A stretch of DNA of 64,000 nucleotides from Alicyclobacillus hesperidum (GTDB lineage Bacteria > Bacillota > Bacilli > Alicyclobacillales > Alicyclobacillaceae): NCBI RefSeq assembly GCF_900107035.1, contig NZ_FNOJ01000002.1:124001-188000 (forward strand). Reading direction: 5' to 3'. The position numbers and the translations under genes were made by a program. Under the pieces are notes generated by a model, which saw only the letters and a list, made by a program, of their open reading frames with translations, was not told the origin of the DNA and ran no database searches. Each line of letters opens with the position of its first letter. The first letter of the stretch is position 1. Positions 35,818 through 44,106 of the stretch are shown piece after piece.

Positions 35818-36774
35818 TCAGTTTGCCAAGTGACATGTGACCGAGTGCTGACTGCCAACCAATTTACGCTCTGGTTTCTTTTGACGACAAACGTCAGTTG
35901 CAAAGGGACAACGCGGATGGAATGTGCATCCGCTGGGCGGGTTAAATGGCGACGGTATTTCGCCCTGAATCGATGTCAGCGCCTGGCGTTTGTCCGCGTC
36001 TTCTGGCATCTTCAAAATGGACTGCAGCAACACCTGGGTATAAGGATGCGTCGGGTTGGCGAACAACTCTTCGGCCGGACCCTGTTCCACCACTTCACCG
36101 AGATACAACACGGCTACTTGGTCACTGAGGTATTCGACTACGGCCAGATTGTGCGAAATGAAGATGTACGTCAGATTGAAGTCCTTTTGCAGTTCTTGCA
36201 ACAATTGAATGACCTGAACCTGAATCGACACGTCCAACGCCGAGATGGGTTCGTCGCATATAACCAGCTTCGGATTTAACGAAAGCGCACGGGCGATGCC
36301 AACGCGTTGCAACTGGCCACCTGACAACTCATGAGGAAACGCGTACTTCACCACGGTTGACAAGCCAACGCGTTCAAGCAGTTCGTCGACGCGCTTTTGC
36401 CGCTCTGCCTTGGTTCCGATATTGTGAATCGCCATTGCGTCCTCAATTGCAGCGCCTATCGTCATGCGTGGACTCATGCTAGCTTGCGGATCCTGAAAGA
36501 TAATCTGCATATCTCGGCGCAAAGGGCGCATCTGTTTCGGCGACAGCTTTGTGATGTCCTGGCCGTTAAAGACGATACGCCCCTCGTTGGCATCGAGCAG
36601 GCGAAGCACTAACCGTCCAAGCGTCGATTTGCCTGAACCACTTTCGCCGACGAGTCCCATCGTCTTGCCCGCGTCCAGCTGGAACGACACTTTTTCAACC
36701 GCATGCAGTTCTCGACCTTGCACGCGAAACCGCTTGGATACTTCCTCAACTTGCAGCAATGGACTAGATGGCAT
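35818..36774 (-). CDS. Opp/Dpp-type ABC transporter ATP-binding protein (OppF-like)
   Basis: 318 residues. Walker A is [15 protein letters not shown], the signature ELSGGQLQRVGIARAL and Walker B KLVICDEPISALD. The C-terminal oligopeptide/dipeptide transporter extension holds CTFHPRCPFATDVC, including Cys residues that can bind a cluster in this family. ATG 36774 is preceded by GGAGGAGG and overlaps the oppD-like end by 11 bases. The ATPase pairs with OppD. The context with Cel9A raises the possibility of oligosaccharide as substrate. Confidence 0.92.
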   Translation of the reverse strand: MPSSPLLQVEEVSKRFRVQGRELHAVEKVSFQLDAGKTMGLVGESGSGKSTLGRLVLRLLDANEGRIVFNGQDITKLSPKQMRPLRRDMQIIFQDPQASMSPRMTIGAAIEDAMAIHNIGTKAERQKRVDELLERVGLSTVVKYAFPHELSGGQLQRVGIARALSLNPKLVICDEPISALDVSIQVQVIQLLQELQKDFNLTYIFISHNLAVVEYLSDQVAVLYLGEVVEQGPAEELFANPTHPYTQVLLQSILKMPEDADKRQALTSIQGEIPSPFNPPSGCTFHPRCPFATDVCRQKKPERKLVGSQHSVTCHLAN

Positions 36775-37750
36775 GAGCGAGGACCTCCTCCGCACGATGG
36801 CATGCGACATGGTGATTGGGACTGATTTCCCGCAGTGCCGGTAACTCAGACCTGCATCGCTCTGTGGCAAACGGGCAACGCGATGCGAAGGAACAACTCT
36901 TGGGCGGTTCAGTGAGCGTCGGTGCCATGCCAGGAATCGGCGACAATTGGCGATCGCGCTGGCCTATTTCGATAATGGAATTCTTTAATCCCATCGTGTA
37001 CGGGTGAGCGGGTTGGAGCAGAAACTGACGAGTGTCTGCCATTTCCATAATCTGTCCAGCATACAGAACGATGATCCGGTCGCAGAAGTTGGTCGCGACA
37101 CCGAAGTCGTGCGTGATCATCGCAATGCTCATCTGCTTTTTTCTACGTTGTTCTTGCAACAGGGCAAGAATCTGCATTTGAACGGTCACATCAAGTGCCG
37201 TCGTCGGCTCGTCCGCAATCAGCAGTTGCGGTTCACAAGCGAGCGCGATCGCAATCATAATGCGTTGGCGCATTCCTCCTGAAAACTCATGTGGATAATT
37301 GCGAAAACGCGCTTTGGGCTCAGGAATGCCCATTTCATGCAAGAGTTGCAACGTGCGTTCAAACGCCTCGCGGCGTCCAGCGTATTGATGTGTCAACATG
37401 GATTCCATGATTTGATCGCCAATCCGCATGACTGGGTTCAAACTCGTCATCGGATCCTGAAAGATGACACCGATGTCGCGCCCGCGAATATCCTCCAATT
37501 GCCGGGGGCGCATTTTGAGAAGATCATGCCCCTGAAACTTTGCAGTTCCCGCCATAATCTTTCCGTTTTCCCGAATAAGGCCGAGGGCGGACATCAAGGT
37601 CACCGATTTGCCGGATCCGCTTTCGCCCACGATGCCAAGAGCTTCGCCTTCGGCGATGGAAAAGCTCACGCCGTTGACGGCGAACACCTCGTCTTCACCG
37701 CGATCGAACTGCACGCGTAAATCGTCAATTGCCAATAATGCCTCTGCCAT
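36764..37750 (-). CDS. Opp/Dpp-type ABC transporter ATP-binding protein (OppD-like)
   Basis: 328 residues. Walker [15 protein letters not shown], signature [16 protein letters not shown], Walker [13 protein letters not shown] and the C-terminal extension [14 protein letters not shown] are all present. It starts two bases after the permease stop, so translation is coupled. It forms the ATPase heterodimer with the next gene product on the inner face of the membrane. Confidence 0.93.
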
Positions 37751-37751
37751 C

Positions 37752-38642
37752 TCACATGCCTCCTTTCGGATTGAACGCTTCTTGTAAGCCGTCGGCTACA
37801 AATAGGAAGGATAGCAGCGTGATGGCGAACACACCGGCAGGGAAATAGAGCAACCAGGGGAAGCCAAGGATATTAGCCCCTGCCTGGGCTAGCATATTAC
37901 CAAACGATGGCATAGGTGGATTTAGCCCCATGCCCACAATGCTCAATCCTGCTTGCGCAGTCAAATCGTACGGAATGCCAAAAGCCAGTGACACCACCAT
38001 GCTTCCGACGACGTTGGGAAACATGTAGCGACGCGCAATGTGCCACTGCGGCGCTCCCAGGGCGCGAGCCGCTTCCACCATCTCGCCATTTCGCATGGAG
38101 AGGACCAGCGAACGAATGAGACGGGCATAACCCGCCCAACCAGGGACACCGATGGCGAGAATCATCGGGAAGATGCCCTTGCCGAGCAGTACCACGAGAA
38201 TGAGGGCGAAAAAGAACGACGGCAACGCAAACATGAAATCGACGGCACGCATGACAATCATGTCGATGATGCCTCCGGACAAGCCCGCCCATAAGCCCAG
38301 CACAATGCCAATGAGGAAACTTACGCAGGTCGCGCCAAGCGCAATCTCAAGCGCGTATCGAACGCTGTACAAGATTTGACTGAAGACGTCGTACCCCACC
38401 GTGTCTGTACCGAACAAGTGCTGCCACGATGGGCCGGAATGCATGTGTAGAAAATCCGCATAGGTATAACTGTACGGCGCAATCCAAGGGCCGATAATCC
38501 CTATTATGAAAAAGAGGATGACCCAGCCGAGTCCGGCCACCGCAAAACCATTGCGACGATATCGCTGCCACGCGCGGTACATCGGCGAATTCTTCCGTGC
38601 CCGGCGCACTGACTGCTGGGATTGTGATACGGCAATTGCCAC
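37752..38642 (-). CDS. Opp/Dpp-type ABC permease (OppC-like)
   Basis: 296 residues. GTG 38642 follows AGGAGGA. An N-terminal OppC-N segment (RAWQRYRRNGFAVAGLGWVILFFIIG) is followed by about five helices. The EAA loop is EMVEAARALGAPQWHIARRYMFPNVVG, the docking site for the ATPases. HLFGTDTVGYDVFSQILY is typical of the family. Forms the channel with the OppB-like subunit. Confidence 0.93.
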   Translation of the reverse strand: MAIAVSQSQQSVRRARKNSPMYRAWQRYRRNGFAVAGLGWVILFFIIGIIGPWIAPYSYTYADFLHMHSGPSWQHLFGTDTVGYDVFSQILYSVRYALEIALGATCVSFLIGIVLGLWAGLSGGIIDMIVMRAVDFMFALPSFFFALILVVLLGKGIFPMILAIGVPGWAGYARLIRSLVLSMRNGEMVEAARALGAPQWHIARRYMFPNVVGSMVVSLAFGIPYDLTAQAGLSIVGMGLNPPMPSFGNMLAQAGANILGFPWLLYFPAGVFAITLLSFLFVADGLQEAFNPKGGM

Positions 38643-38689: not shown

Positions 38690-39655
38690 TCACTGCAATT
38701 TGACTCTTGGATCCATCACCGCGTATATGACGTCAACAGCCAAATTCGTCAACATGATGGTTGCGCCCAAAATGAAGACCGCCGTGATGGCCAATGGGAA
38801 GTCAAAGTTTGTGAACGCCGTCGAAATCACCTTGCCGAGACCGGGAATGGCAAAGATGTTTTCAACCCATACAGCACCGACCACCGAGAATGCAAACTGA
38901 GGACCTATCACGGTGATGAGCGCGGTGAGCGAGTTCTTTACTCCATGTTTAAGAACAAGAGGCCAATACTTGACACCCTTCGCTTTCGCAGTGCGAATAA
39001 AATCCTGCCGCATGGTTTCGATCAGGCTACCTCGCATGTAGCGGGCTACCACACCGATGTTTCCTGCAGCGAGCGATACCACGGGCAACACAGCTTCCGG
39101 CACGGTTCCCCATCCTGTAACAGGAAGCACGTTTTGCCACTCCACACCAAAGAGCAATACGAAGATAACCGCCAAGACGAACGACGGAATAGCCTGGCCG
39201 AACATAGAAAGAGTCGTAACCAAGTAATCAACCCACGTATTTCTCTTAATTGCAGCAATAATACCCATAGGTATGCCCACAACTACCGACAAAACCACCG
39301 ATGAAAAAGCTAGAATCACGCTGATAGGCAGAGCCGTCTTCAGCTGGGACATGATGCTAAGCGTCGGATTTTGCATTGAATTACCAAAGTTAAGTGTAAA
39401 AGTATGCCACTCGTAGAGAAGCACCTGATGCCAGAGTGGAAGATTGAGTCCATACCTGAGCTGAAACTGCTCCATGAGTTTCTGGTAGGCAGCCGGATCC
39501 TGAGCCGCAAGCGGAGCGAGCGACGACGCAAGCTGCGTCGTGTTCATGAACCCTCCCGGCGAGCAATACATCATGATATACGAGATGGCAATCACAGCCG
39601 CGAGCGTGATCACAATAGCCACAAAGCGCTTGGCGAAAAATTTGGCATAGAACAT
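38690..39655 (-). CDS. Opp/Dpp-type ABC permease (OppB-like)
   Basis: 321 residues from ATG 39655 (AAGGAGG upstream). Six membrane helices are expected. The EAA loop is DFIRTAKAKGVKYWPLVLKHG. The long external part after the first helix (LASSLAPLAAQDPAAYQKLM) and LPLWHQVLLYEW are common in the dipeptide permease group. It follows the binding-protein gene by 59 bases. Confidence 0.93.
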   Translation of the reverse strand: MFYAKFFAKRFVAIVITLAAVIAISYIMMYCSPGGFMNTTQLASSLAPLAAQDPAAYQKLMEQFQLRYGLNLPLWHQVLLYEWHTFTLNFGNSMQNPTLSIMSQLKTALPISVILAFSSVVLSVVVGIPMGIIAAIKRNTWVDYLVTTLSMFGQAIPSFVLAVIFVLLFGVEWQNVLPVTGWGTVPEAVLPVVSLAAGNIGVVARYMRGSLIETMRQDFIRTAKAKGVKYWPLVLKHGVKNSLTALITVIGPQFAFSVVGAVWVENIFAIPGLGKVISTAFTNFDFPLAITAVFILGATIMLTNLAVDVIYAVMDPRVKLQ

Positions 39656-39714
39656 CGCCGGCCTCCTTCCGAAGCGCCCGTGGGCAAAGCCCACGGGCCG
39701 TCTTTACGCCACGC

Positions 39715-41829
39715 TTACTTCGTGGACAGGTACTGGAATTGATAGAAGTTGCCCCATGCCCACGGGTTTGGTTGAGCACCCGTCACAGTCGAGCGCTCCA
39801 GGTAGTAGGTTTGGTTGTAGTACAAAGGAATGACCCATCCCTGCTGCATGAGCGACGTCACGAGTTTACCTGCCCAAACGGCAGCTTGAGACGATTGCAT
39901 GCTGTTCTGCTCATAAGCCTGCCACATGCGCCATTCGCGCTCTTGTGCGGACTCCTGCGTATCCCAATACACCTGCAAATCAAGCGCGCCGGTATTGGTT
40001 CCACCGAGTGTCGTCGTGGCCGACTCAGGCGCAACAAACTCCCACGCAAGGACATATGCGCCATGCTTTGCGCTAGCAGTCTTCGCGGACTTCCACTGCG
40101 CGACAATCGAGTTCCACTGCTGTTGCAACGACGGAGTACCCGGCGGGCTTAGGATAGCGCGCCACTGTGCGGGTTGTTCCTTCGTCCACTTCTCAATGAT
40201 AGGAATGTCCTTTTCGACTTCCTTCTGAAGTGGGATCCAGTCACTCCAGCTCACACCGGTATTCGCATTCTGCGGATTTCCGTACTTCTGGACCGAGGTG
40301 GGATCATACGGTGTGTTGTACCACGGCAGAACGTGTTGGACCTGCTGCGGCGTCCATCCATAGTCGCCCGGGAAGTAGATGCCCTGACTTGCCTGAATAT
40401 CCATGTTTGCAGGTTCGAACCAGTTCACAGCACCAGCAGCGACCACAAATCCAGGTTGAATCCCCTTAAGCGGCCCTTCCCACACAAGTGCACTGTAATC
40501 GGTCTGGTTTTCCTGGATGATCTTCGTTTGAATACCTAGGTTTTGTTGCAACTCTTGAGAAATAGCTTCTGCTACGGGTACGCCTTGTTGGTTGACATCT
40601 GGTACCGGAGCATATAAGTACAACACGGGCAAACCCTTGCCGTTTGGATAACCAGCTTCCGCAAGCAGTTTCTTGGCCTGTGCCACGTTTTCAGGCAACC
40701 CAGTCTCGTACTTCTCGGCTGGCCAACCTGGGGTCGCGAACTTGTTTGTCACACCACCCATGTTGTTAAGCACGTCTTGAACAATGGGTTGGCGCTGCAC
40801 CGCCATAGCTATCGCTTGACGAACCTTTGGATTGTAGTACGGCGACGAAATAGCCGAGTGATCCCATTCCAAGTACTCAATGCTATAGTCGGGCGCAGTA
40901 TGCAGTTCTTTGCTGAGATTGTGCGTCTTGATATATTGGAAATCCGACGAAGAACCTACTAACGCGACATCCAATTTGCCCGCCATGAAATCTTCAACGG
41001 CAACCGTTGTACCCGGAACCAGGTTGATGACTTTCGCGTTGCCGTGGTTGACTTCACCCGGATGACCGACATATTTCGGATTCGGAACCAAGGTTATCGT
41101 GCCGTTTGGTGTAAACGATTTCACGATGTATGGACCATCGCCGACAAAGTTCTGTGGTAAATACCAATCGGTCGGATGCGCATCCACGATCTTCGGGTCA
41201 AGCGGCATGGACCCTGAGACGGCGAGTTCGCCCAAGATATAATGAGGCGTGGTCGTCGTAATCTGTAATTCATAGTTGTTTACAACCTTGATACCAACCT
41301 GACTTGCCGGTACGGCACCAGAGTGATATTGATACGCATTTTTGACATTGTTCAGAACGCTTGCCCAAAGTTGCGCCTGTGAGTTGGACGGATTCAACTG
41401 CCGCATCCAAGCGTAGTAGAAGTCCTGGGCCGTGACGGGATCGCCATTTGACCAACGCGCATCCTTACGCAAATAGATGGTCCATGTAAGCCCGTCCTTG
41501 GACAGAGAATACCCGGATGCAATCTTCGGTACAATCTGATTTTGTTGGTTGTACCCGTAGAGACCTTCGAGGATAGTACCCTGGTCTACAAGAATCTGCG
41601 CCGCCCATTGCGAAGGATCCAGCGACGAGATGCCCGGAGGTGACGGATATGTGATGGTCACCGAGCCACCCGCATTGGAAGCCGCGTGTACGAGCACCGA
41701 TGCCGATCCGCCGGCGTTATTCGCCGTGTTATTTTGACCATGCACAGACGTCGCGCAACCAACGAGGCCACCGCTCGCCATGAGTACAGCTACCGGAATT
41801 TGCCATTTCCTTGTCTTTCGCTTGCCCAT
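39715..41829 (-). CDS. Family 5 extracellular solute-binding lipoprotein of the Opp-type operon
   Basis: 704 residues, larger than a typical OppA (about 540-600). Lipoprotein signal with lipobox GLVGC (about residue 24). ATG 41829 has AAGGAG eight bases upstream. SBP family 5 features are LTWTIYLRKDARWSNGDPVTAQDFYYAWMR and FVGDGPYIVKSFTPNG, with KVRQAIAMAVQRQPIVQDVL later. The extra length is in the C-terminal third (near IIEKWTKEQPAQWRAILS). Family 5 binds peptides but also cello-oligosaccharides and other sugars in thermophiles. It is the first gene of the five-gene ABC operon and is preceded by the duplicated promoter cassette. Confidence 0.9.
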   Translation of the reverse strand: MGKRKTRKWQIPVAVLMASGGLVGCATSVHGQNNTANNAGGSASVLVHAASNAGGSVTITYPSPPGISSLDPSQWAAQILVDQGTILEGLYGYNQQNQIVPKIASGYSLSKDGLTWTIYLRKDARWSNGDPVTAQDFYYAWMRQLNPSNSQAQLWASVLNNVKNAYQYHSGAVPASQVGIKVVNNYELQITTTTPHYILGELAVSGSMPLDPKIVDAHPTDWYLPQNFVGDGPYIVKSFTPNGTITLVPNPKYVGHPGEVNHGNAKVINLVPGTTVAVEDFMAGKLDVALVGSSSDFQYIKTHNLSKELHTAPDYSIEYLEWDHSAISSPYYNPKVRQAIAMAVQRQPIVQDVLNNMGGVTNKFATPGWPAEKYETGLPENVAQAKKLLAEAGYPNGKGLPVLYLYAPVPDVNQQGVPVAEAISQELQQNLGIQTKIIQENQTDYSALVWEGPLKGIQPGFVVAAGAVNWFEPANMDIQASQGIYFPGDYGWTPQQVQHVLPWYNTPYDPTSVQKYGNPQNANTGVSWSDWIPLQKEVEKDIPIIEKWTKEQPAQWRAILSPPGTPSLQQQWNSIVAQWKSAKTASAKHGAYVLAWEFVAPESATTTLGGTNTGALDLQVYWDTQESAQEREWRMWQAYEQNSMQSSQAAVWAGKLVTSLMQQGWVIPLYYNQTYYLERSTVTGAQPNPWAWGNFYQFQYLSTK

Positions 41830-41968
41830 TGTATTCACTCCTTATCCACACCACTTGTCTTTGCTAACGCTTTCATAGACCCCCGTACTCAGTCAGGCTC
41901 CTTCTGCATCGCCAGGTCTGGCTGCTTAACCCCCCCATTCCCACTTCGTTGCCTAGGAACCAAGGTAC

Positions 41969-42064
41969 CCAAATCGATTTGCACTAGGACAAAAAGATTC
42001 GGTTCCTACCAACAACATAAAATCGGCCCAACCCAAAATCAATAGTCCTTTTATGTGGTTATTG
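41969..42064 (-). promoter_or_regulatory. Promoter/palindrome cassette, proximal copy
   Basis: On the minus strand TTGATT (42037-42042), a 17-base spacer and TATGTT (42014-42019) make a sigma-A-type promoter. Downstream, 32 bases past the -10, lies the perfect 12-bp palindrome CAAATCGATTTG (41970-41981). The centre TCGA resembles LacI-family operators, and the position downstream of the start site suits a repressor acting as a roadblock. Confidence 0.6.
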
Positions 42065-42102
42065 TCTTTGGTGAGCCCGAACGCAGCAAGCACGCATCGA
42101 AT

Positions 42103-42191
42103 CCAAATCGATTTGTGCTTACAGATTCGTTGATGATTCAAACATAAAATTGGCGCAGGACGAAATCAATAGTCTATTTCGTCAATTATTG
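42103..42191 (-). promoter_or_regulatory. Promoter/palindrome cassette, distal copy
   Basis: A second copy with the same elements: TTGATT (42164-42169), 17 bases, TATGTT (42141-42146), and palindrome CAAATCGATTTG (42104-42115). A shared GAATC precedes both palindromes on the minus strand. The copies differ in the spacing from -10 to palindrome by seven bases. Confidence 0.6.
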
Positions 42192-42303: not shown

Positions 42304-43917
42304 TCAGACACCCACAAAATGAGAAACCACAAAGACGGCTGGCGAGTTCCAGTAGACAGCCACTTCATTGGTCGAATAACTTTCTTCGTGATCGAGAAAA
42401 CATCGTGCTGCAGGCTGGTTCTGCAGACGCTCGCGAGCTACTGTATCTTGCAAATTGCGATTGGGGCCGCCGGCCAACATGCCTGGCACAGGAGCCTCGA
42501 CTGCATCAGCCACCGATGGACGATGGTGAGGATGAAGAAGCGGCTTTCTCCCATACCCTGAAACGTAGCACTGTTGTAAGGCATTTTCGCCCAGCATGTA
42601 ATGAATAGTCTGTAAAGCTCCGTCGACGTACAGATCGGAAGGTTCCAGTGCGTATGCAATCAGCAAGTGCATGCCACGATTTAACAACACCATGTTGCTT
42701 CCCCAAATGTAATCGTGCTCCGCGAGCGGAATGCCAAATGCCGTACATGCACCAAGGCTGACCAACCTATCCGCCTCTGTCAGCCAAGCTTTGCGCAGAT
42801 GTTCCCAAACCTGCGCCTGCGTAACGGCACGATCCGCCCGCAAATACGCGATTGTGCCGTAACCGCCAACGTCAGCCCAGCCTAGCTCAGTCAGGGAAAA
42901 CCCTCCAGTTGCGAAGGCCTGCAAGCATGCCTGATGATAGCGATCTTCTCCCGTCGCTTGCAAAAGCGAAGCCGCTGCCCAGTAGTGTTCATCGCTCAGC
43001 TTCTTATCGCCATACTCGCCTGTGGCTACGCCATCCGGATTGTGAAACGGTTCGGCGTCATGACTCGTGCACCATTCGTAGGCCCGCGCAGCAGCGTTCA
43101 AACATCGGGTTGCAAAATCCGCATCAAACGCCCGATAGATGCGAGCCGCATGGGCAAGTGCAGCCGCGAATGTCGCAGTAGCTGCGTATGAAATAGGCGA
43201 GAGCACCAGTTCCCCACGATCGTCCTCAGGCATCGTTGACAAAGGAGGGAACCGATAAGTTGTGACCTTGTGATAGACGCCTCCCGTCTGCTCATCCTGC
43301 ATACGCAACATCCATTCGAGTTCAAAGCGAACCTCACTAAGCACGTCAGGCAAGCCGGCTCCCGACTCTGGGATACCGACCGGGCTCATAAATGCCTTCG
43401 GATAGAATTCATAGGCGAGCAACAGATCCGCAACCGCTTTCGCCGCCGGCACAACGTATTTCCCGTAGTCCCCAGCGTCATGCCATCCGCCGTGACAGTC
43501 GATACGCCGCGATGGTTCGGCATACACATGTGCCTTTTCCACGTGACAAGCGGCATGCGAGAATTCGCCGGCGTGCTCAGCAGACAACTCGACGCCACAG
43601 CGCTGAAAGTAGAAAAACTTCTGTAAGCCTTTATGCAGATTGGCATACACGTCAGGATGAATGGCCAAAGAGACCGATTGTCCTATGCCCGGCACTGTGA
43701 GTTGATATGTGCCGACTTCGATGACGTCACTGATGTCGCCGATGTACACCTGCATTCCGGTTGCCTTGTCATCTCCGACTGCCTGCAATTCGCCAGCGAA
43801 AACCTCGCTACCATCCGCCCGGAAGACGGCAAACGAACCTCCGCAACCGCTTACATAGAAACGTTTCCGATCCTGTGGACGATAGCCCAACTGGTTTATA
43901 TGTATTGCTGCTTGCAT
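42304..43917 (-). CDS. cel9A: Glycoside hydrolase family 9 endoglucanase, cytoplasmic
   Basis: 537 residues from ATG 43917 (GGAGG five bases upstream), the same length as the characterised A. acidocaldarius Cel9A. An N-terminal Ig-like domain (about 1-90, HINQLGYRP signature) precedes the (alpha/alpha)6 catalytic domain. Catalytic Asp residues lie in HDAGDYGKY (147 and 150) and the acid Glu near 518 in STNEVAVYWNSP; PHHRPS is the family His motif. No signal peptide is present, so it acts inside the cell on imported cello-oligosaccharides. The ABC operon lies directly downstream. Confidence 0.93.
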   Translation of the reverse strand: MQAAIHINQLGYRPQDRKRFYVSGCGGSFAVFRADGSEVFAGELQAVGDDKATGMQVYIGDISDVIEVGTYQLTVPGIGQSVSLAIHPDVYANLHKGLQKFFYFQRCGVELSAEHAGEFSHAACHVEKAHVYAEPSRRIDCHGGWHDAGDYGKYVVPAAKAVADLLLAYEFYPKAFMSPVGIPESGAGLPDVLSEVRFELEWMLRMQDEQTGGVYHKVTTYRFPPLSTMPEDDRGELVLSPISYAATATFAAALAHAARIYRAFDADFATRCLNAAARAYEWCTSHDAEPFHNPDGVATGEYGDKKLSDEHYWAAASLLQATGEDRYHQACLQAFATGGFSLTELGWADVGGYGTIAYLRADRAVTQAQVWEHLRKAWLTEADRLVSLGACTAFGIPLAEHDYIWGSNMVLLNRGMHLLIAYALEPSDLYVDGALQTIHYMLGENALQQCYVSGYGRKPLLHPHHRPSVADAVEAPVPGMLAGGPNRNLQDTVARERLQNQPAARCFLDHEESYSTNEVAVYWNSPAVFVVSHFVGV

Positions 43918-44106
43918 AGTCGCCTCCATATCGCCCATTCGCCGTAAGCTTATTTTGGTGATTCCTTCGCTATCATACACGTGATAGCAAGCAAAGGAAA
44001 TATATGAATGCATACTTGCACATTCACAAAGGGCGCAACCGCACCCAAACCAGGTTTGCAGTCCCGCCCTTGCGAAACACCACGCTTTGTTTCCGAGCTA
44101 TCTGCC

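Follow-up and report, generated by a model that had tools for sequence, protein, structure and literature searches.

Upstream of an ABC importer operon in Alicyclobacillus hesperidum, a short intergenic region carries the same promoter-like arrangement twice, each time followed by the same palindrome. What do the two cassettes do, and which protein would act on them? A first-pass annotation of the window (the whole stretch of 64,000 nucleotides that was analyzed) had proposed that a LacI-family-type regulator acts there on tandem promoters. Both cassettes are on the minus strand, flanked by a GH9 endoglucanase gene upstream and the gene of a solute-binding protein downstream. The genes and predicted elements of the region, in the order in which they are read, are:

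42304-44013, minus strand: GH9 endoglucanase gene, the upstream neighbor, read in the same direction; the product resembles solved endoglucanases
42164-42169, minus strand: P1 -35 box TTGATT, inside the conserved 12-mer GACTATTGATTT (42163-42174)
42141-42146, minus strand: P1 -10 box TATGTT, after a 17-base spacer
42118-42129, minus strand: putative auxiliary-operator remnant of P1, CGAATCTGTAAG, 14 bases upstream of the main operator
42104-42115, minus strand: predicted operator O1, exact palindrome CAAATCGATTTG
42037-42042, minus strand: P2 -35 box TTGATT, inside GACTATTGATTT (42036-42047)
42014-42019, minus strand: P2 -10 box TATGTT, after a 17-base spacer
41990-42001, minus strand: putative degenerate auxiliary operator of P2, CGAATCTTTTTG, 20 bases upstream of O2
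41970-41981, minus strand: predicted operator O2, exact palindrome CAAATCGATTTG
39715-41838, minus strand: SBP_bac_5, family-5 extracellular solute-binding protein, first gene of the operon; likely start ATG at 41829
38690-39694, minus strand: ABC permease of the Opp/Dpp type, BPD_transp_1, assigned by profile
37752-38642, minus strand: second ABC permease ORF, assigned by position and sequence; orthologs in the same place
36764-37750, minus strand: OppD-like ABC ATPase, assigned by profile
35818-36870, minus strand: second ABC ATPase ORF, OppF-like, assigned by sequence and position; orthologs in the same place

A family-5 solute-binding protein (SBP), a BPD_transp_1 permease and an Opp-like ATPase together identify the operon as an Opp-type importer, and the order of the GH9, SBP, permease and ATPase genes is largely common to relatives. 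By family and neighborhood, the GH9 gene is the counterpart of Aaci_2475 of A. acidocaldarius. The solved proteins closest to the importer SBP are named as peptide binders. The GH9 neighbor, together with an operator that the importer has in common with the endoglucanase gene celB, suggests that the substrate is a sugar.

The cassettes are as the first-pass annotation had described them in their main parts. The window has exactly two copies of TTGATT-N17-TATGTT, both on the minus strand, and the 12-bp palindrome is exact in both cassettes (41970-41981 and 42104-42115), with no other exact copy in the window. The annotated offset of 134 bases holds for the palindromes; the promoters repeat at 127 bases, because copy 1 has 25 bases from the -10 box to the palindrome and copy 2 has 32. 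Aligned locally with each other, the cassettes score 40, against 28 for the best of 2000 mononucleotide shuffles. Under Markov models of orders 1 to 4, a window is expected to hold 0.012-0.021 exact copies of CAAATCGATTTG and a genome 0.5-0.9. No enrichment is seen among looser matches: allowing up to two mismatches, the window has 8 where 4.3 are expected, a count that 7 of 100 shuffles reached.

The hexamers of P1 and P2 each match the sigma-A consensus at four of six positions (8 of 12 in total, with a 17-base spacer), and a sigma-A consensus scan (at least 9 of 12, spacing of 16-18) called no promoter at the cassettes; the promoter reading therefore rests on conservation in eight relatives. 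Close SBP homologs, at 69-99% identity, are encoded by A. tengchongensis (G005), A. acidocaldarius (G002), A. sendaiensis (G008), A. mali (G013), A. sacchari (G011), A. acidiphilus (G004), genomes G009 and G014, and, in part, a metagenome bin (G034). In all of these except A. acidiphilus, which has the SBP and the promoter and lacks the palindrome there, the exact palindrome stands behind the conserved promoter. Across 11 aligned cassettes the -10 box is TATGTT in nine, TATTTT in A. acidocaldarius and TATCTT in A. acidiphilus. The metagenome bin carries the same pair of CAAATCGTTTTG and CAAATCGATTTG at the importer promoter as the A. acidocaldarius group; its contig seems to be A. acidocaldarius DNA foreign to the bin, with a leader nearly identical to that of A. 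acidocaldarius, and it was left out of the counts of independent genomes for this reason. GACTATTGATTT is kept in 10 of the 11 cassettes, with GACAATTGATTT in the eleventh (A. acidiphilus), which is more than a -35 box requires; with the CAATAA upstream of it, it may mark a second protein site.

The relatives also bear on how the duplication arose. Members of the A. acidocaldarius group (G002, G009, G008, G013 and G014) have a single cassette with two operators 20 bp apart, CAAATCGTTTTG, which begins 12 bases after the -10 box, and CAAATCGATTTG. A. sacchari has one promoter and the exact palindrome only, and tandem cassettes were seen only in A. hesperidum and A. tengchongensis. Since the -10 box is 32 bases from the palindrome in all six single-copy relatives measured, copy 1 has lost 7 bases. 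In copy 2, CGAATCTTTTTG aligns without gaps to the CAAATCGTTTTG of the acidocaldarius group with two differences; CGAATCTGTAAG of copy 1 differs from it at five positions when aligned with the 7-base deletion, a likeness that is weak in itself. The first-pass annotation had also placed GAATC in both cassettes. Two copies do occupy matching positions, but there are three rather than two between 41820 and 42260; by alignment, the two position-matched copies are the left half of a predicted degenerate second operator that is intact as CAAATCGTTTTG in five relatives.

Over a 59-base promoter block, copy 1 is 68% identical to copy 2 and 81% identical to the A. sacchari promoter. In the stretch downstream of the -10 box, the likeness is between copy 2 and the acidocaldarius group on the one hand and between A. 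sacchari and copy 1 on the other. On the simplest reading, the duplication would predate the split of A. sacchari, which would then have lost copy 2. That one of the two copies is a decaying duplicate, with a single functional promoter, is a real though lesser possibility: a single promoter suffices in relatives, the lone cassette of A. sacchari resembles copy 1, and copy 1 is without 7 bases of the auxiliary operator. Against this, the -35 box, spacer, -10 box and palindrome are intact in both copies, and between A. hesperidum and A. tengchongensis the same block is 100% identical in copy 2 and 98% in copy 1, although these genomes are too close for the figures to weigh much. We favor the reading in which both promoters are used.

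Conserved sequence downstream of an expected start site could also act as RNA, in the form of a riboswitch, attenuator or T-box. The window contains no Rfam match at gathering score, the leader folds with a z score of only -1.2 and holds no terminator-like site, and the same motif recurs in a different context in the region between celB and a lacI gene. The riboswitch, terminator and RNA-leader readings were rejected on the first three of these grounds, and an RNA element is extremely unlikely. Farther upstream, between the GH9 gene and P1 (42203-42252, minus strand), there is a perfect 21-bp stem with an 8-base loop and a fold z score of -7.1. It is not a classical intrinsic terminator, as neither flank has a T-run. 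A. sacchari has a weaker form of it, and the aligned leaders of the acidocaldarius group have no counterpart; protection of an mRNA 3' end is a guess at its role.

A palindrome that was frequent and randomly placed in the genome would speak against a regulatory role, as the first-pass annotation had pointed out. The counts do not bear this out. The 2.86-Mb A. hesperidum genome holds three exact copies: the two in the cassettes and a third within a Gfo/Idh-type ORF of contig C19. Among 15 genomes of the genus there are 27, of which 10 lie in the importer promoter (two each in A. hesperidum and A. tengchongensis; one each in A. acidocaldarius, G009, A. sendaiensis, A. sacchari, A. mali and G014). 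Sixteen of the remaining 17 are within ORFs, four in the same Gfo/Idh-type ORF (A. hesperidum, A. tengchongensis, A. sendaiensis and A. sacchari) and 12 in other ORFs of at least 161 aa. The last, in genome G007 (L280, G007:C1:3312710), is outside any ORF of at least 90 aa and has a 2-mismatch copy 12 bp away. A reversed-pattern control gave no exact copy in A. hesperidum against three for the palindrome, but it is not a fair background, since it contains CTA/TAG steps, which are probably rarer; Markov estimates and a scan of the class were used as backgrounds instead.

At up to one mismatch, A. hesperidum has 21 sites, four of them in the two promoter regions proposed here as a regulon. Eleven of the other 17 are inside gene-like ORFs of at least 300 aa, and six are outside such ORFs: L204 (in a doubtful 407-aa ORF), L208, L209, L223, L227 and L206. 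The L206 site (L206:944-967, G000:C32 at about 23455, where G000 is this genome) is a copy of CAAATCGATTTA immediately ahead of the ribosome-binding site of a gene for a Zn-dependent dehydrogenase, possibly a single-site third target of the same regulator. A copy of AAAATCGATTTG that precedes the main site by 1.7 kb in A. acidocaldarius, G009, A. sendaiensis and A. mali was considered as a second operator of the importer locus and rejected, as it lies inside the start of the GH9 coding sequence (KSIFYNQIGY); this placement was read directly in A. sendaiensis and, with one more change, in G014, and was inferred from the same distance in the others.

A scan for LacI-family helix-turn-helix (HTH) domains found none in the window, where the first-pass annotation had seen no regulator gene. 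Elsewhere, 12 LacI-family HTH loci were found in A. hesperidum and 12 in A. acidocaldarius. Among these 24 loci, only one ortholog pair has two tandem near-palindromes upstream of the gene. In A. hesperidum this lacI is on contig C30, outside the window, and is preceded by AAAATCGATTTG and CAAATCGATTTA, each with one mismatch, which are separated by 14 bp and lie 153-167 bases upstream of the start codon; about 0.0015 sites at up to one mismatch are expected per 200-bp upstream region. The A. acidocaldarius ortholog likewise has two tandem sites 14 bp apart, with two mismatches each. At seven other LacI-family loci, the 3 kb of sequence contain just one 2-mismatch site, which at L158 is about 240 bases upstream of the gene. 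Another LacI gene, which G009, A. mali and G014 carry some 13 kb away from the importer, was set aside: its product is like an A. acidocaldarius protein (L166) with no near-palindrome in its 3-kb locus.

The C30 protein (337 aa) matches the N-terminal LacI HTH profile PF00356 with 51.5 bits (cut-off 27) and the periplasmic-binding-protein-like effector domain PF13377 with 123.5 bits (cut-off 26.5). Its gene is divergent from celB, which encodes a secreted endoglucanase. A promoter TTGACA-17-TATAAC points toward celB in nine of nine genomes with a lacI ortholog, with GATAGC in place of TATAAC in genome G010. Directly after the celB promoter, twin operators 14 bp apart are present in A. hesperidum, A. 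tengchongensis, A. sacchari, A. acidocaldarius, G009, A. mali and G014, most with one to three mismatches to the 12-mer. The region is cut by a contig end in A. sendaiensis. In G010, which has no celB match at 1e-30 and no close SBP, only the first site is left, with three mismatches. CelB of A. acidocaldarius (G002) is 959 aa long, as in the published type strain; the A. mali match is divided in two (query 356-958 and 1-357, G013:C17:44365-47249; L253 and L258), as if split by a frameshift or an assembly error. Just after the candidate lacI, at the same locus in all nine genomes (L172-L180), there is a gene matching A. hesperidum glpP, a glycerol-3-phosphate responsive antiterminator, whose expression may be tied to that of the regulator.

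A paired pattern, AAATCGWTTT-N2-12-AAATCGWTTT, was drawn from these sites, and the test was where else it occurs. It is present in 9 of 41 genomes of the family, and every match is in the celB-lacI region or the importer promoter, which supports the LacI-family-type reading of the first-pass annotation, as do the retention of promoter and palindrome at orthologous importer loci and the tandem 1-mismatch palindromes before one lacI. Within the family, by computation, paired operators are confined to two loci. In A. hesperidum, A. tengchongensis and A. sacchari only the celB-lacI region matches; with a degenerate auxiliary operator, their importer promoters do not fit the pattern. A scan of 398 genomes of the class gave 19 with a match, namely 8 of the 14 in the genus, the metagenome bin and 10 of 383 others, which were taken as background. 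Two matches in another family of the class (L268, G256:C2:629233; L269, G414:C1:1001589) have paired AAATCGATTT 22 bp apart and possibly belong to another LacI-type regulon with a similar motif.

The candidate regulator is also distributed with the sites. Orthologs of at least 75% identity were found in 9 of 15 genus genomes, namely all eight with operators and G010. The six without such an ortholog (G001, G003, A. acidiphilus, G006, G007 and G012) have no paired operator, and five of them hold 13 exact single palindromes, 12 in ORFs and one (that of G007) not. A. acidiphilus has no LacI match above 36%, though a celB homolog is present, and the metagenome bin, which carries the importer site, has no match to the LacI at 1e-40. 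Among the nine orthologs, the first 60 residues vary at zero to four positions, and identity over the remainder drops to 71%. More distant paralogs are present in G014 (56%), A. mali (52%), G009 (62%, partial) and G019 (51%).

A regulator of another family, such as GntR, TetR or DeoR, could bind the palindrome and the LacI adjoining celB be a bystander, given that the scan for sites at regulator genes covered LacI-family loci and that a perfect 12-bp palindrome is not unique to LacI proteins. This is unlikely. Tandem sites lie between lacI and celB in the seven genomes where both sides are present, and have decayed in G010. The operator is even and palindromic with a central CG, as CAAATCGATTTG at the importer and as central-CG near-palindromes before lacI and celB; the closest solved relative of the C30 protein is PurR, which aligns over nearly the full length (E 1e-49) and through the hinge motif ARSL. 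These observations argue for the C30 LacI as the protein that recognizes the palindrome.

Published expression data exist for A. acidocaldarius, whose Aaci_0048 (celB) and Aaci_2475 neighborhoods hold the same genes as here. In the sections available from that study (PMC5901876), CelB is an extracellular endoglucanase acting on cellulose derivatives and xylan, and its gene was down 5.6-fold on xylose and 2.8-fold on glucose. Aaci_2475 fell about 2.8-fold when xylose or glucose was added to arabinoxylan cultures, and on the microarray the oligopeptide-type transporter adjoining it was highly down-regulated on xylose. The same sections propose no operator or specific regulator for either locus. 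The co-regulation of celB, Aaci_2475 and the transporter is consistent with a shared regulator but weak and not specific, since 13 of 19 glycoside hydrolase genes on the array fell whichever sugar was added.

The decrease on glucose and xylose would also fit CcpA acting at the palindromes as cre sites, the more so as CcpA is itself a LacI-family protein that prefers a central CG. When both palindromes are aligned on the central CG, though, the outer half-site bases differ: the TG and C at the outer positions of the consensus TGNAANCGNWNNCW for cre, as given in the available part of PMC5483248, are absent. A separate CcpA-like protein, encoded on contig C38, is the closest to CcpA among the A. 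hesperidum LacI proteins scanned (383.6 bits to TIGR01481, cut-off 442), and its 2.7-kb locus has no near-palindrome; the C30 LacI reaches only 135.9 bits. Three exact sites in a genome are also few for a global regulator. CcpA in place of a dedicated regulator is thus very unlikely, and we return to the C30 LacI.

The arrangement has counterparts in known systems. In the parts of a survey of LacI/GalR-family regulons that were available (PMC4052901), 72% show autoregulation, about 20% of operons have more than one site, and intersite distances peak at 13, 22 and 32 bp. An even palindrome with a central CG, tandem sites, autoregulation and a divergent regulator gene are features that the present system would share with the local sugar regulons of that survey. 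It differs in that the spacings of 14 bp (celB-lacI) and 20 bp (importer) are near the peaks rather than on them, apparently with one regulator, that the conserved core spans 10-12 bp rather than the 16-22 nt of the surveyed motifs, and that the promoter is duplicated along with the operator. GlyR3 of Clostridium thermocellum (celC-glyR3-licA) is a functional analogue, a LacI-family repressor beside cellulase genes that is released by a beta-glucan disaccharide from a site near the celC start. Its site, TGAACGCGCGTACA, differs from CAAATCGATTTG, glyR3 is part of the celC cluster, and the sections available of that paper (PMC5483248) describe no importer with duplicated promoters. Among the matches listed in literature searches, no title concerned the decamer AAATCGATTT in a bacterial sugar operator, and no title or opening of an abstract described the present operator, though Eckert and Schneider 2003 may mention the divergent regulator; PMC8579813 and PMC9820247, as far as their text was available, contain no match to it.

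Collectively, these data make it likely that a dedicated, autoregulated LacI-type repressor controls the duplicated importer promoter and celB until an oligosaccharide arrives. The two cassettes would be duplicated copies of one repressible promoter of the Opp-type importer, which most likely takes up cello- or xylo-oligosaccharides. The C30 LacI would bind CAAATCGATTTG, which each promoter has in its initially transcribed region, as well as the weaker site one to two turns upstream, and would thereby block initiation or early elongation; O2 may in addition be a roadblock for transcripts that start at P1. Repression rather than activation is favored, since at both loci the sites are downstream of the -10 box. 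An oligosaccharide freed by secreted CelB would release the repressor, and CelB, the importer and the repressor gene would then be induced together. Counting against this proposal are the weak hexamers, the mismatches of most operators at celB-lacI, the exact palindromes in five genus genomes that lack the candidate LacI, the 7-base difference in the distance from the -10 box to the operator between the two copies, the degenerate auxiliary operator at the importer in A. hesperidum, the celB homolog of A. acidiphilus in a genome lacking the candidate LacI, and the importer site of the metagenome bin without a LacI match, which is read as bin contamination.

A more specific version, in which one LacI-type repressor serves two different spacings of paired sites (14 bp in the celB-lacI region, 20 bp in the importer promoter), promoter and operator were duplicated together, and O2 both represses P2 and blocks the road for P1, is somewhat unlikely as a whole. 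If true, it would constitute a naturally evolved two-stage switch and would offer a direct test of LacI dimers binding sites about 13 bp apart, an arrangement described in the available part of PMC4052901 as hard to reconcile with structures.

In its general form, the control proposed here is well supported but of an ordinary kind, and the promoter duplication is specific to the lineage. What had been an anonymous repeat becomes a concrete regulator-operator pair that can be tested, for the use of plant polysaccharides in an industrially interesting thermoacidophile genus, and two natural operator geometries, as well as a single-copy and a duplicated promoter, can be compared within one regulator system. 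At the level of the operator, it would explain how celB and a distant importer can be induced together.
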